Source: a virus
Length of the DNA: 30,142 nt
IMG/VR virus record: IMGVR_UViG_3300009506_000155
Span: 1 to 30,142 of that record
Reading direction: 5' to 3' (one strand)
Part shown: one piece after another, positions 72-8,558 of the stretch
How positions within the stretch are numbered: position 1 is the first letter of the stretch
Layout of the letters: every line of letters begins with the position of its first letter
Position numbers and translations under genes: made by a program
The notes under the pieces: model-generated
What the model was told of the DNA's origin: nothing
Database searches by the model: none
What the model saw: only the letters and a program-made list of their open reading frames with translations

Positions 72-343
72 CGGCCTACTTAATCTCATATATAATTCTG
101 GGCGCGGTAATAATTGGGTTGCTCGTTTGGATTATCTACAGCAAGAAGACTCTAGGCGTGACTAATGGCGCTGGCGAGTTAGCCAAGCAACACAAAAAGA
201 AAGTTGTCGAAGTTGCCAAAGAGCACAACAAAGACGCTCTTAGGTTGGCAAACGAAGTGATAAAGAAGGCGGAAGAACATGCAATCAAGGCTACTGGTGG
301 CGATCTTAGTCTTACTGATATCTTCAACGGCAAGCGCGGCTGA
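68..343 (+). CDS. Small membrane protein with N-terminal TM segment and charged helix (i-spanin-like layout)
   Basis: The protein has 91 residues. Residues 4-25 form one hydrophobic segment (LISYIILGAVIIGLLVWII), followed by a Lys/Glu/Ala-rich stretch (about 40-75) likely to be a long helix. The layout, N-in with a periplasmic helix, is that of an inner-membrane spanin subunit (Rz-like), but at 91 residues it is short and has no diagnostic motif. The start overlaps the preceding stop (AATGA), and the next gene begins inside this one in another frame (65 nt overlap), which recalls Rz/Rz1 nesting. A spanin or accessory lysis role is inferred from layout and context only. Confidence 0.6.
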   Translation: MTAYLISYIILGAVIIGLLVWIIYSKKTLGVTNGAGELAKQHKKKVVEVAKEHNKDALRLANEVIKKAEEHAIKATGGDLSLTDIFNGKRG

Positions 344-761
344 AGTAGGCGAAGCGCCTTCAGTGCCGCCAATACCGAGCGGTTTGCCGTTGCCTGTCAA
401 GCTTGGCGGTGGTCAAGTTACAATTTCTGAGAACGGTCAGCAAGTAGTAATACAAGAGGGTGATGTGCTAGTGCCACAAGAGCTTGACTTGTTTATTGCA
501 CAAAGATTGATGTATCTTGAACAACGGCCTAGGCTTTGCCAGACCGCGCTTGATGAACAAAAGCGAGTGCTGGCTGTAGAATGTAATGGCGTGATTGAGA
601 CTATGCAAGCGGGTTGTGATGAAGAAAAGTTAAGAATCGAATCGCAGTCTCAGAACAGTTTACAGCGCTGGCAGCTAATCGGTGCGCTTGCTGTAGCAAC
701 TGCTTTAGGTGTCGGTATTGGGATTTACTTTGGTTCATTGTCTTTTGTGTCGTCACGATAA
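279..761 (+). CDS. Exported protein with signal peptide, proline-rich N-terminus and C-terminal TM segment
   Basis: The protein has 160 residues. Residues 1-20 look like a Sec signal peptide (basic MQSR, hydrophobic LLVAILVLLI, cleavage-like ASA/AE). A proline-rich stretch follows (SVPPIPSGLPLPVK), then a helical region with three cysteines (about 87-122) and a C-terminal membrane segment (about 133-155). There is no lipobox cysteine, so it is not a standard Rz1-type lipoprotein. The ATG has an upstream GGCGGAAG ribosome binding site inside the preceding gene. It resembles a class of poorly characterised proteins at the end of phage lysis regions that have a coiled-coil and a C-terminal TM. 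Involvement in lysis or envelope disruption is an inference. Its 3' end overlaps the convergent gene at 725-997. Confidence 0.65.
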   Translation: MQSRLLVAILVLLISSTASAAEVGEAPSVPPIPSGLPLPVKLGGGQVTISENGQQVVIQEGDVLVPQELDLFIAQRLMYLEQRPRLCQTALDEQKRVLAVECNGVIETMQAGCDEEKLRIESQSQNSLQRWQLIGALAVATALGVGIGIYFGSLSFVSSR

Positions 762-1569: not shown

Positions 1570-1922
1570 TTTTGTAAATCCTCCCAAGCCTTGATGGCTT
1601 CTTGTATCTTCTGCCAGTCTTCTGGCTTGTATGCTGTGTTGTCGGCTTGATTATTAAGCAGGGCTTCATAGCAAAGTTGGCCTTTTTCTGTTGTTACATC
1701 TAGCACATACTCTGCATGTTCTGCTCTCTCTGTTTGTTCTGTTAGCATAATGCGTAGTTGTTCGTTTTCGTGCTGGAGTTGTTTGGTCCATCTAATAAGT
1801 GTATCAGATACAATTTGTTTGACGGCGTTAACCGAATCTTCTCGCTCTGTATCGTTAACACGATAACCAAGCTCATCAGTTATGCTATTAACAACCATAT
1901 TTATAGCTTTTTGACTAATCAT
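1566..1922 (-). CDS. Hypothetical coiled-coil protein
   Basis: The protein has 118 residues. A predicted helical core (about residues 35-80, WTKQLQHENEQLRIMLTEQT) looks like a coiled coil, and the C-terminus (EDWQKIQEAIKAWEDLQK) is also helical. It overlaps both neighbours by an ATGA stop/start, so it is translated as part of a coupled chain. It has no catalytic motif, membrane segment or recognised family. Confidence 0.55.
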   Translation of the reverse strand: MISQKAINMVVNSITDELGYRVNDTEREDSVNAVKQIVSDTLIRWTKQLQHENEQLRIMLTEQTERAEHAEYVLDVTTEKGQLCYEALLNNQADNTAYKPEDWQKIQEAIKAWEDLQK

Positions 1923-2698: not shown

Positions 2699-3931
2699 CT
2701 ATGTTTCTGCTAATGGCCGATATTGATCGGCGGTTAAGCCAAATGTTGATGCAACAGCTTCGTGTGCTGTTTTTGCCTGTGGTGTTACTGGTATAAAATA
2801 TTCTTTTTTGGTACCATCGTGTTCTGGTGTTGAATTGATGACTCTTACTAGAGCTAATGGTTCATTGTTATAGAATCCATCTCGGTGATACAATACCCCG
2901 TAATCATCTCTGTTGATTTCTTTTGCTCCACTATTTTTTATATAGTTCTCAAAACCGTAGATTTCAAGTTTTGCTCTTTTAACCTCAAGATTTTGTTCTT
3001 TGTCGATTTCTTCAACAGTAATTGTTTCTGGTTGTTCAACAACTCTCTTATTTAATCTTAAACCCTTCCAACAATGTACTTCCCACCCATCACGAAAACG
3101 TAATGCTGGGCCATTGGAACAATGCAAGCGTGATGGCATATTTTCTCTATGTTCCCATTTAACAATTTCTGGTCGTTCACAGATGATACACACCCCTTTA
3201 TAGGGGTACCACCATCCACATGACTTAGCTAGATCAGACCATAGCTTCAATTGTTGAGATTTTTCTGAATCGTATTTAATTTTTAAAACCTGTTCGACAA
3301 ATAAATAAAACGCAATCCAGTACGCATCTTGTTGACCCCATAGCCACGTTGGGGTGAAAATATTTTTCTCCCCCAACGAAGCCCGCAACGAAACCCCCAA
3401 CGAATCCCGCAACGAAGCCCACAACGAAGCCCGCAACGAAGCCCACAACGAAGCCCCCAACGAATCTTGCAACGAATCTTGCAACGAAGCCTGCAACGAA
3501 GCCCACAACGAAGCCCGCAACGAATCCACCAACGAATCCCGCAACGAATCTTGCAACGAATCTTGCAACGAATCCCCCAACGAAGCCCCCAACGAAGCCC
3601 GCAACGAATCTCCCAACGAATCCCGCAACGGATCCCACAACGGATCCCACAACGAATCCCACAACGAATCCCACAACGAATCTTGCAGAGAATCCTCCAA
3701 AAGAGACTTATTCTTCAAAAGACTCACCAGCAAACATGCTGTTGCCGGTGAATCTGCCCAAATAAATTTTGGTGGTTGTTCACCAATGATAGAATACATT
3801 TTTTCTATAACATTCTCTGCTGTTTTTCGATCGGCTGATTCTGTGGAGCATCCGATATCGAACCATTGTTGTTTAAAATATAATAATTGTTTTTCTTGTT
3901 CTTTTGTTAATTTTTTTATTTTTTGTTTCAT
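2699..3931 (-). CDS. DUF6745-like protein with 27 tandem tetrapeptide repeats
   Basis: The protein has 410 residues. Residues 1-78 are a helical lead-in. Residues 79-186 are 27 consecutive four-residue units of the form x-(D/A)-S-L (QDSL, WDSL, RASL, GASL). Residues 187-410 match what I know of the DUF6745 family: aromatic WIAFYLFV, SCGWWYPYKGVCIICERP, NGPALRFRDGWEVHCWKG, ITVEEI, YGVLYHRDG, VRVINSTPEHDG, and the C-terminal TAHEAVASTFG. Family members often carry xxSL-type repeats of varying number before this domain, so the array is a family feature that looks expanded here. The function is unknown. It has no signal peptide, so it is probably cytoplasmic. Confidence 0.75.
   Translation of the reverse strand: MKQKIKKLTKEQEKQLLYFKQQWFDIGCSTESADRKTAENVIEKMYSIIGEQPPKFIWADSPATACLLVSLLKNKSLLEDSLQDSLWDSLWDSLWDPLWDPLRDSLGDSLRASLGASLGDSLQDSLQDSLRDSLVDSLRASLWASLQASLQDSLQDSLGASLWASLRASLWASLRDSLGVSLRASLGEKNIFTPTWLWGQQDAYWIAFYLFVEQVLKIKYDSEKSQQLKLWSDLAKSCGWWYPYKGVCIICERPEIVKWEHRENMPSRLHCSNGPALRFRDGWEVHCWKGLRLNKRVVEQPETITVEEIDKEQNLEVKRAKLEIYGFENYIKNSGAKEINRDDYGVLYHRDGFYNNEPLALVRVINSTPEHDGTKKEYFIPVTPQAKTAHEAVASTFGLTADQYRPLAET
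3373..3690 (-). repeat. 12-bp tandem repeat array inside a coding region
   Basis: On the plus strand the core AACGA (twice AACGG) recurs 26 times at an exact 12-bp spacing, with a degenerate 27th unit (GCAGAGAAT). Flanking positions vary among GCC, TCC and TCT. Each unit encodes one tetrapeptide of the minus-strand gene at 2699-3931. The exact period keeps all frames open, which produces long artificial ORFs in the other frames. Unit number is likely to vary by slippage or recombination without breaking the reading frame. Confidence 0.95.
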
Positions 3932-6743: not shown

Positions 6744-6758
6744 TGCACAATCTGTGCA
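6744..6758. promoter_or_regulatory. Operator O1, TGCAC-N5-GTGCA
   Basis: A 15-bp inverted repeat, TGCACAATCTGTGCA. It shares both 5-bp half-sites and the 5-bp spacer length with O2. It sits next to the leftward promoter and is a likely binding site for a dimer of the Cro-like protein encoded at 6878. Confidence 0.65.
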
Positions 6759-6829
6759 TTTATTTACTTTTTATTTTGTAATAAAAACAGGGGTTTACAA
6801 ATAAAAGTAATTTTGTTGAGAATAAACTA

Positions 6830-6861
6830 TTGCACTGATCGTGCACAAACATGTATATAAT
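6830..6861 (+). promoter_or_regulatory. Rightward early promoter (PR-like)
   Basis: A consensus -10 TATAAT at 6856-6861 lies 17 bp before the ATG of the cro-like gene. The -35 is poor: TTGCAC at 6830-6835, 18 bp before the overlapping TATATA at 6854. It overlaps operator O2. The -10 is convincing; the exact -35 is not. Confidence 0.55.
6831..6845. promoter_or_regulatory. Operator O2, TGCAC-N5-GTGCA
   Basis: TGCACTGATCGTGCA, with the same half-sites as O1, 87 bp away. It covers the -35 region of the rightward promoter, so binding would block transcription of the cro-like gene (autorepression). Confidence 0.65.
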
Positions 6862-6877
6862 GATAGAGGTGCTTTTT

Positions 6878-7069
6878 ATGAAGTTGAAAAGATATATCAA
6901 GTTAAATAATATCCGCGTTGCTGATTTTGCAGCTCGGCTCAGAGTATCTGGTCGTAGTGTGTATGCGTATTGCAACGGTGAGCGTATACCGTCACGAAAA
7001 GTTATGATTAGGATCGGACGTATTACGTCCGGTCTTGTGACTGCAAATGATTTTTATGGTGGGAAATGA
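6878..7069 (+). CDS. Cro/CI-type helix-turn-helix repressor
   Basis: The protein has 63 residues from the ATG at 6878, chosen because AGAGGT lies 7 nt upstream and the upstream in-frame ATG (6851) sits in the promoter. A helix-turn-helix occupies about residues 10-35 (VADFAARLRVSGRSVYAYCN), followed by a short dimer-type tail that includes a GERIPSRKVMIRI helix and ends TANDFYGGK. The size and the VTANDFY ending are typical of small Cro-like phage repressors. It probably binds the two TGCAC-N5-GTGCA operators flanking its promoter. No CI partner gene is present, so it may act alone as an autoregulated early-gene switch. Confidence 0.8.
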   Translation: MKLKRYIKLNNIRVADFAARLRVSGRSVYAYCNGERIPSRKVMIRIGRITSGLVTANDFYGGK

Positions 7070-7422
7070 TAGATCTCAGACTAGGAGCATGGCAAGATGC
7101 GCTTGCTGATGTTGAGCGGGTCGATACAATTTTGGCGGATCCTCCCTATGGGGAAAAGACGCACGCAGCAAACAATGAGTCTGTTAGGAGGCGGTTTGAT
7201 GGGTGCATGGATCGCTGCATAGGTTACAGCTCTTTATCAGCCCAAGACATCAACACGATGGTAGATCACTGGTCGCCCCGTTGCAATGGCTGGTTCGTTG
7301 TGATGACAAGCCACGATCTGATCGGCGCTTGGTCGGATGCGCTTGAAAAAAACGGGCGGTATGTTTTTTCCCCGATTGCTTATGTCGAGCGCGGTGGCCG
7401 CGCTGCTTTTTTGTTGACTTGA
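7066..7422 (+). pseudogene. Truncated DNA methyltransferase (N-terminal DPPYG half only)
   Basis: An ORF of 118 residues, starting at ATGATAG over the cro-like stop. The sequence up to VFSPIAYVERGG follows a common phage DNA methylase family: RLGAWQDALADVERVDTILA, the catalytic DPPYG motif IV at residues 26-30, and WFVVMTSHDL. Family members are roughly twice as long, with the SAM-binding motif in the missing C-terminal half, so this copy should not be catalytic. The last codons run into a GC-rich hairpin and T-tract (7388-7415). Truncation by deletion is the simplest reading. A domesticated DNA-binding fragment is possible but unsupported. Confidence 0.65.
7388..7415 (+). terminator. Rho-independent terminator at the end of the methyltransferase remnant
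   Basis: AGCGCGG (7388-7394), loop TGG, CCGCGCT (7398-7404), then GC and TTTTTT (7407-7412). It is a 7-bp GC-rich stem followed by a run of six T, a textbook intrinsic terminator on the plus strand. It lies between the cro-like gene and the replication genes, the position of lambda tR1, so it may limit early transcription unless antiterminated. Confidence 0.8.
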
Positions 7423-7440
7423 ACTATAAATTACTCTAAT
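7414..7440 (+). promoter_or_regulatory. Candidate promoter just downstream of the terminator
   Basis: TTGACT (7414-7419) and TCTAAT (7435-7440) each match 5 of 6 consensus positions, but the spacer is only 15 bp. A transcript would begin near 7447, at the first arm of the interleaved repeat element. The short spacer keeps confidence low. Confidence 0.3.
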
Positions 7441-7447
7441 GTTGTTC

Positions 7448-7534
7448 TTGCAATGACTGACTACAAAAAATAACAGGCTCTCGCTGGTGCTAATTGGTGA
7501 CCTACAGTCATTGCAGCCGATTAGCGCCAGCGGG
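7448..7534 (+). ncRNA. Interleaved inverted-repeat element (candidate structured RNA)
   Basis: There are two complementary pairs in the order A-B-A'-B'. A is TGCAATGACTG (7449-7459) and A' is CAGTCATTGCA (7505-7515), 11 bp perfect. B is 7480-7497 and B' is 7517-7534, 18 consecutive pairs with no mismatch when three G-U wobbles are allowed in plus-strand RNA (7481/7533, 7488/7526, 7495/7519). B/B' alone forms a hairpin whose 19-nt loop contains A', so A can pair with the loop (pseudoknot) or compete with the hairpin. Every departure from perfect pairing is a wobble on the plus strand only, which favours a role in rightward RNA. I recognise no known RNA family. Confidence 0.6.
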
Positions 7535-7547
7535 TTTGGTGGTTTAT

Positions 7548-7664
7548 ATGTTTAAAAGGAAACAGTTTTCCAAAAGGACGCGGTTTGAGATTTTCAAATT
7601 AGTTTTTGTAAAAAAGAGGGCGTTTTGTTCTGCGATTATTTGGATCTTCTTGACGATAGGATGA
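7548..7664 (+). CDS. Possible 38-residue basic peptide
   Basis: An ATG at 7548, behind a weak GGTGG, opens a frame MFKRKQFSKRTRFEIFKLVF continuing through VKKRAFC to a hydrophobic end (SAIIWIFLTIG). It starts 13 nt after the inverted-repeat element and could be controlled by it. Its highly basic first part and hydrophobic tail resemble small membrane-binding peptides, but there is no homology evidence and it may be spurious. Otherwise 7535-7703 holds only the AGGAGG ribosome binding site of the next gene. Confidence 0.22.
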   Translation: MFKRKQFSKRTRFEIFKLVFVKKRAFCSAIIWIFLTIG

Positions 7665-7703
7665 GGGACTCAATATTAGAAAGCATACAAGATAGGAGGC
7701 GTT

Positions 7704-8558
7704 ATGGCTCGCGGTAGGATGCTCAACAAGAAAATATCTCTCAATCCAGAAATTGCAGAGATAGCAAATAGCTTGGGGTGTGAGGCAGCTTTGGTTATAA
7801 CTTGGATGATATCTCACCTTGATCGTGATGGCAGAATTACAGCAAATCCAATTGTGCTCAAGGCTCAAGTGGCGCCGATGTTGTCCGGAGTAACTCCGGA
7901 TCTAATCCGGAGTGTTTTGGCTAAAGCGAGCGAGCTTGGCGTTGTTTCTCTGTACTCGGTTGACGGCAAGGATTTTCTGGAGTTTGTAAAGTTTAAGGAA
8001 AATCAGTCTGGTATGAGATACGAGAGAGAGGCTGAAAGTGAAATACCCGCTAACTCCGGACTAGCTCCGGACTTAGTCAGGACTAACTCCGACAACTGTC
8101 GGCTGAATAGAATAGAAGAGAATAGAAGTAAAGAGAAGAGAAAAGAAGAGAATATAAAAGAAAAGAATACCGCGGCTAGCGCCGCTTTGATTTTGTCTGT
8201 TTTTGATCACTACAGAACATACCACCCAAGAGCACACCCTAAGCCGAACAGCAACAGCAAGGAATGGCGCGCTATAGCTGCGAGGTTAAAAGAGGGCTAT
8301 ACAGCAGCAGGGCTTAAGCAAGCAATTGACGGTTGTCATAAGTCACCGTTTCACCAGGGTGAGAATGACAGAGGAAAAAAGTATGATACTCTTGAATTGA
8401 TTATGAGAGATAGCAGCAAGGTTAATAATTTCATAGAAACAGCAGAGGCGCCAGAGCAGCCAGTTATGAGCGAAAATGAACGCCGAAGCAAAAGGGCGGG
8501 GCAAAATTTCTTAAAGCGGCTAGAGGTATTTGAGCAACAGCAAAGGGGGGATGAGTAA
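7704..8558 (+). CDS. Phage replication initiator (lambda O-like organisation)
   Basis: The protein has 284 residues and starts 7 nt after an AGGAGG site. The N-terminal about 100 residues look like a winged helix of the phage replisome-organiser type (MLNKKISLNPEIAEIANSLG, then TWMISHLDRDGRI, DLIRSVLAKASELGVVSLY and DFLEFVKF). A low-complexity Arg/Lys/Glu linker (about 133-152) joins it to a C-terminal domain (SVFDHYRTYHP, KEWRAIAARLKEGY, YDTLELIMRDSSKVNNFIE) typical of such proteins. The gene contains iterons and a purine-rich tract, as lambda O does, so it probably binds an origin inside itself and recruits the host helicase through the loader-like products downstream. The architecture is seen; the role is inferred. 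Confidence 0.7.
   Translation: MARGRMLNKKISLNPEIAEIANSLGCEAALVITWMISHLDRDGRITANPIVLKAQVAPMLSGVTPDLIRSVLAKASELGVVSLYSVDGKDFLEFVKFKENQSGMRYEREAESEIPANSGLAPDLVRTNSDNCRLNRIEENRSKEKRKEENIKEKNTAASAALILSVFDHYRTYHPRAHPKPNSNSKEWRAIAARLKEGYTAAGLKQAIDGCHKSPFHQGENDRGKKYDTLELIMRDSSKVNNFIETAEAPEQPVMSENERRSKRAGQNFLKRLEVFEQQQRGDE
7884..7913. repeat. Cluster of three 8-bp sites in the initiator gene
   Basis: TCCGGAGT (7884-7891), ACTCCGGA (7893-7900) and TCCGGAGT (7906-7913). The first two form a perfect 17-bp palindrome around one A. The same core recurs in the second cluster at 8051-8094, so both may be initiator-binding sites. Confidence 0.65.
8051..8170 (+). other. Candidate replication origin: four 11-bp iterons plus a purine-rich tract
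   Basis: Tandem units at 11-bp spacing: TAACTCCGGAC (8051), TAGCTCCGGAC (8062), TTAGTCAGGAC (8073) and TAACTCCGACA (8084). They are followed at 8104-8168 by an A+G-rich, almost C-free plus strand (GAATAGAATAGAAGAGAATA and on). Iterons next to an asymmetric AT/purine-rich unwinding region inside the initiator gene is the layout of lambda ori within gene O. Confidence 0.65.

Follow-up and report, generated by a model that had tools for sequence, protein, structure and literature searches.

Two long interlocked helices between the cro-like and replication genes of a tailed phage, a candidate leader of a putative truncated HNH endonuclease gene

In this study, we have followed up an interleaved set of inverted repeats (A-B-A'-B') in a virus record of IMG/VR. 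The record comprises 30,142 bases, carries a set of tailed-phage genes and is, as a whole, called the window here. The element is real and RNA-like, and it is probably a cis-regulatory leader. The first-pass annotation had proposed an RNA structure at this place; shuffle statistics, together with covarying elements of the same topology before HNH genes of distantly related phages, support a plus-strand leader that contains either a pseudoknot or competing folds. The more specific reading that we prefer, although with slightly less than even confidence, is that of a cis-acting 5' leader limiting the translation of the ORF that starts at 7548, a truncated HNH cassette inserted between cro and rep. 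For a leader function, support is moderate in the window and better in two other phage loci (L194 and L198). The features on which the argument is built are collected in Table 1.

Table 1. Coordinates of the interlocked element, its surroundings in the window and the elements of loci L194 and L198
Feature	Position	Strand	Basis or remark
Cro-like HTH regulator	6851-7069	+	True start may be further downstream
Methylase-like ORF, 118 aa, DPPYGE motif, apparently short	7066-7422	+	Sub-threshold family match
Possible second target of loop A', TTGCAATGGCTG, 12 uninterrupted pairs and one extra G.U	7281-7292	+	Inside the methylase-like ORF
Intrinsic terminator, end of the methylase-like ORF	7388-7412	+	Terminator scan
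Weak candidate promoter, TTGACT (7414-7419), 15-nt spacer, TCTAAT (7435-7440)	7414-7440	+	By eye
Arm A, 11 Watson-Crick pairs and one U.G with A'	7448-7459	+	Visible in the sequence
A-B linker, 20 nt	7460-7479	+	Predicted fold
Arm B, 18-19 pairs with B', 3-4 of them G.U	7480-7498	+	Sequence
Arm A', in the 17-19 nt loop of hairpin B:B'	7505-7516	+	Sequence
Arm B'	7516-7534	+	Sequence
Putative Shine-Dalgarno GGTGG of the 38-aa ORF	7538-7542	+	Sequence; predicted unpaired probability 0.15-0.27
38-aa ORF, begins MFKRKQFSKRTRFEIFK, probable truncated remnant	7548-7664	+	Weak resemblance to an HNH N-terminus
Replication initiation protein (rep)	7704-8558	+	phrog_16167, E 4.8e-32
L194, element before an AP2-HNH gene	1613-1676		Immediately upstream of the gene
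L194, second element before an AP2-HNH gene	6976-7049		Immediately upstream of the gene
L198, element before an AP2-HNH gene	308-380		Immediately upstream of the gene

The two complementary pairs are present exactly as first described. Positions 7449-7459 form an 11-bp perfect inverted repeat with 7505-7515, which U7448.G7516 extends, and 7480-7497 form 18 consecutive pairs with 7517-7534, three of them G.U, or 19 pairs with four G.U when U7498.G7516 is included; G7516 can take part in one helix only, either A:A' or B:B'. As A/A' interleaves with B/B', the two helices cross on one strand, which is the arrangement of an H-type pseudoknot. The statement that the imperfections are wobbles on the plus strand only was also borne out, as every one of them is a G.U pair in the plus strand and becomes C.A in the minus strand. 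Because the wobbles turn into C.A, the minus strand is without a comparable structure at the element, and its best interleaved pair (merely -39.0 kcal/mol) is located elsewhere. Since single-stranded DNA, too, tolerates G.T pairs, the wobble bias indicates the strand but by itself does not prove RNA. The same tolerance, the perfect A/A' inverted repeat and the repeated ACTCCGG motifs of the adjacent rep gene, which could be an origin, would agree with an element acting as DNA, either as a single-strand initiation site or as paired inverted protein-binding sites near the origin. However, words resembling arm A are not enriched in the window (12 found, 12.8 expected), a count on which we also rejected arm A as a repeated operator, and a role in DNA does not predict that the topology should recur before HNH genes with a Shine-Dalgarno inside it, as described below; we regard this alternative as very unlikely.

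The strength of the pairing is far outside what shuffled DNA produces. The stacking energies of A:A' and B:B' sum to -59.2 kcal/mol, the strongest interleaved pair in the window, compared with -39.3 at the second-best place and with a mean of -38.0 (sd 2.8, extreme -50.6) for the best pair per shuffle when the whole window was dinucleotide-shuffled 250 times. B:B' alone (-38.1) is both the longest and the strongest stem of the window, the best stem in any shuffle being -37.1. When 7440-7545 was folded as a single strand, the energy was -40.7 kcal/mol, with a z-score of -4.0 for the plus strand and -2.8 for the minus strand.

The genome setting suggests that the element arrived with its neighbours. 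The leftward genes of the phage include RecT- and RecE-like genes, and the rightward genes encode the cro-like regulator, the replication initiator, RusA, SSB, terminase, portal and capsid. Between the end of the cro-like gene (7069) and the start of rep (7704) lie the methylase-like ORF, the terminator, the interlocked element and the 38-aa ORF. In the Vibrio phages VvAW1, D478 and PGA, the nearest named phages that share the early-gene order, rep comes directly after cro, so that 7066-7703, element included, appears to be an inserted segment, in a comparison where Rep identity to the window is just 27-42%. The methylase-like ORF has its start at the stop codon of the cro-like gene, and its end is in the intrinsic terminator. 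Compared with the usual adenine methylases of phages it looks short, and no close relative was found for it in the collections searched.

The orientation of the genes suggests that a plus-strand transcript crosses the element. The first-pass annotation had placed an intrinsic terminator upstream of the element and a candidate promoter at its start. The terminator is indeed there, whereas the promoter (TTGACT/TCTAAT) can be recognised by eye but is weak and, with its 15-nt spacer, was not listed by a scan requiring 16-18 nt. If used, it would place the transcription start at about 7447, immediately before arm A. With such a start, arm A would be the extreme 5' end, and the element could be a 5' stabiliser whose pairing protects the mRNA of the replication operon, or a site that prepares the rep message for processing by RNase III; both the long uninterrupted stem of 18-19 bp and the insulation of the unit by the upstream terminator are consistent with this idea. 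Against it, besides the weakness of a promoter that the scan did not pick, stems of this kind require no interleaved partner, and comparative support is absent; we regard this explanation as unlikely.

Immediately downstream, three bases separate the end of B' (7534) from the putative Shine-Dalgarno of the 38-aa ORF (7538), which means that a stable structure abuts a ribosome binding site, as in the endonuclease leaders discussed below. Beginning at the start codon, the first 17 residues of this ORF (MFKRKQFSKRTRFEIFK) can be aligned with two HNH endonucleases, one from Vibrio phage 219E41.2 (MTKRKAISKRTRFEVLK; 12 of 17) and one from Synechococcus phage Ssp-JY42 (MANRKPISKKTRFEVFK; 11 of 17), a weak resemblance over 17 residues with database E-values of 3-6. 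The fact that two unrelated phages give the same kind of protein at the same position makes this lead more credible. The residues after the first 17 are without a match and the remaining HNH protein is missing; the ORF matched no Pfam or PHROG family, and its codon score is borderline. We read the ORF as a probable stub left from a truncated HNH (homing-type) endonuclease cassette. The matching HNH genes of 219E41.2 and Ssp-JY42 have no comparable leader, and no convincing one was found at nine further AP2-HNH/HNH starts in named phages, which indicates that only some HNH genes carry such leaders.

The predicted order of folding offers a way in which the element could act. When growing prefixes of the RNA were folded from 7447, A:A' had a probability of 0.96-0.99 for RNA ends at 7515-7526, after which B:B' rose to 0.73 at 7530 and 0.99 at 7534 and replaced A:A', in a nested model that cannot represent the two helices together and in which B:B' displaces A:A'. 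In the final predicted fold, the Shine-Dalgarno-like GGTGG is mostly paired, through linker bases 7459-7464 and 7474-7478, which can pair with the region 7532-7544. The loop lengths for the crossing helices are 20, 6-7 and 0-1 nt, and because of the 0-1 nt between A' and B' the first-pass annotation had suggested that full simultaneous pairing may be strained. We do not find the objection compelling, as the geometry would allow A' and B' to stack as one continuous strand of a rod, with bridges of 6-7 nt and 20 nt, so that it is possible for A:A' and B:B' to coexist. With A:A' predicted to form first and B:B' last, a timed switch would be a further possible role. In the mechanism that we propose, A would pair with A' first during RNA synthesis; when B' emerges, B:B' would form and either displace A:A' or, together with A:A', make up an H-type pseudoknot. 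The rod so formed would stop three bases before the Shine-Dalgarno of the 7548 ORF, and its basal extension would pair with the Shine-Dalgarno and slow ribosome loading. The HNH cassette would have been inserted, with its own leader, between cro and rep.

That the element would repress translation is suggested by analogy with known phage genes. Stable RNA structures control the translation of T4 I-TevI/II/III and segB and of Aeh1 mobE, and in seg43(25) a ribosome binding site that is itself free is immediately preceded by a very stable hairpin (PMC2988022). Like the element of the window, all of these are very stable RNA structures located at a ribosome binding site or a little upstream of it, in these cases that of a phage endonuclease gene, and the layout of seg43(25) is the closest to ours. 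Importantly, there are also clear differences: the known homing-endonuclease leaders are simple hairpins whereas the element has two long interleaved helices, and they precede endonuclease genes whereas the window has a 38-aa stub of uncertain identity. We propose, with moderate confidence, that the crossing long helices are a new variation on the RNA structures that restrain phage endonuclease genes.

Among the three functions first suggested for the element (an antitermination element, a regulatory RNA or a translational switch), the translational switch fits best. A put-like RNA would act in cis on RNA polymerase, with no protein needed, and cause read-through of downstream terminators. The element resembles HK022 put in being a structured RNA of similar size (about 87 nt vs about 70 nt) in an early phage transcript, and it stands after an early regulator and a terminator. 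However, put is built from two nested stem-loops that follow one another over a total of about 70 nt (PMC9378689), with no crossing helix, whereas the element is one hairpin plus a crossing helix; the layout thus leaves this reading unsupported. In addition, the terminator-like site downstream, at 7893-7913, is part of the rep gene and falls on a repeated CTCCGGA motif. A put-like function is, in our opinion, very unlikely.

The strongest rival is an antisense RNA like P4 CI or P1 C4. The processed B:B' hairpin would then pair in trans, through A' in its loop, with arm A (7448) and with 7281-7292, and the early operon would be either terminated or blocked in translation ahead of rep; we consider both the antisense activity and this outcome unlikely. 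As in P4, there is a long wobble stem, with a loop complementary to upstream sequence of the same transcript, located between the early promoter region and the replication genes. The P4 immunity locus, which served as a positive control (Rfam C4 hit at 8420-8507, 74.9 bits), has a 17-bp wobble stem (-35.1), loop segments complementary to flanking targets and an interleaved sum of -60.4, nearly that of the window. In P4, the CI RNA has seqA as its partner on the upstream side and seqC on the downstream side (PMC4825925). The second target in the window lies 156 nt upstream of arm A; 0.53 such sites are expected per 30-kb strand. On the other hand, no C4 (RF01695) covariance match was obtained in the window even at E 10, nor any match in sequence. 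C4 has three stems, with loops a' and b' complementary to a target RNA that includes a ribosome binding site (PMC5320573), whereas the element has a single loop of 17-19 nt in place of two inner hairpins. Neither of its targets covers a recognisable ribosome binding site, the one at 7281 lies in coding sequence, and there is no nearby downstream target.

Searches of annotated phages, plasmid records (by protein query only), IMG/VR scans and genome contigs brought up no homologue of the element, and no copy was returned by DNA queries, by the exact interleaved pattern or by queries with neighbouring proteins (rep, the methylase-like ORF, p176, RecT, capsid and TerL). Rfam gave nothing at gathering score in the window and related loci, with chance-level matches only at 7400-7720. 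As no copy had been found, we scanned for the architecture instead of the sequence, on both strands of the window and of 80 phage loci recovered by terminase (43-60% identical over the best segments), restricting the scan to pseudoknot-compatible spacings and using one shuffled copy per locus as the null. The window beats its own shuffles by 26.7 kcal/mol, and the worst null does so by 16.2. Against the corresponding null extreme of -16.2, the interleaved pairs of L194 (-27.2), L191 (-26.4), L124 (-23.0) and L198 (-17.9) also exceed their own shuffles. The elements of L194, L191, L124 and the window lie between longer ORFs of their own strand and are unrelated in sequence. If the HNH ORF of L198 is read at its greatest length, its start falls within the element; the likely start codon, however, is the one just after the element, as in L194. 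Because the scan allows G.U, the G.U-only pattern across the elements is partly built in, and we did not use it as evidence for a class.

The AP2-HNH genes at the L194 and L198 elements belong to phrog_374 (E 1.5e-68 and 8e-62), and the second such gene of L194 is 42% identical to the first. In all three elements, the 3' strand of the second helix contains a Shine-Dalgarno (AGGACGGGAG or GGAAGGA), with the start codon 5-8 nt past it, and the elements were matched by 0 of 60 local shuffles. The window differs in that its Shine-Dalgarno comes after helix B and not within it. These pseudoknots correspond to no Rfam family. The L198 element and the L194 element at 6976-7049 are homologous, with 74% identity over 98 nt. 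In an alignment made by hand on the helices, helix 1, with 20 pairs, has five double compensatory changes and three single ones, and two of its pairs are broken; helix 2, with 10 pairs, has one double compensatory change. These six compensatory double changes are direct evidence, from one sequence pair, that selection maintains both crossing helices in the L194/L198 phages.

The L191 element (11-90, contig 6761-6840) is intergenic, beside a probable primase gene on the opposite strand, and the L124 element (1186-1277) is intergenic, beside a 109-aa ORF; no recognised HNH gene adjoins either of them. Several other candidates were set aside: the GC-rich loci L010, L014, L012, L040 and others lie in coding sequence or were equalled by shuffles of the same DNA, and the interleaved pair of L115 is inside coding sequence. 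L123, which resembles a bidirectional terminator, and L147, in which further direct repeats are present, were not counted.

Homing endonucleases must stay quiet for phages to tolerate them. It is conceivable, although we doubt it more than we believe it, that phages carry a sequence-independent class of long-helix A-B-A'-B' leader pseudoknots, which would travel with mobile HNH cassettes and other inserted genes, diverge in sequence while keeping their topology, and time or cap translation by helix exchange during transcription. If true, such a recurring pseudoknot would be invisible to sequence-based RNA searches, as its topology and not its sequence is retained. Scanning leaders for interleaved complementarity would be a way to find more of them, and the folding-order switch is directly testable.

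The window holds some further features of note. Two similar palindromes at 6744-6758 and 6831-6845 (TGCACAATCTGTGCA and TGCACTGATCGTGCA) lie between the divergent early genes and are probable operators of the cro-like protein. In the interior of the rep gene, repeated motifs of the ACTCCGGA type are found at 7888-8100; some phages have their origin within the initiator gene and, by analogy, these repeats are possibly the replication origin of this phage. Finally, a 410-aa protein encoded at 2699-3931 carries a DUF6745 domain (E 6.8e-53), which is unusual among the identified early genes of the phage.
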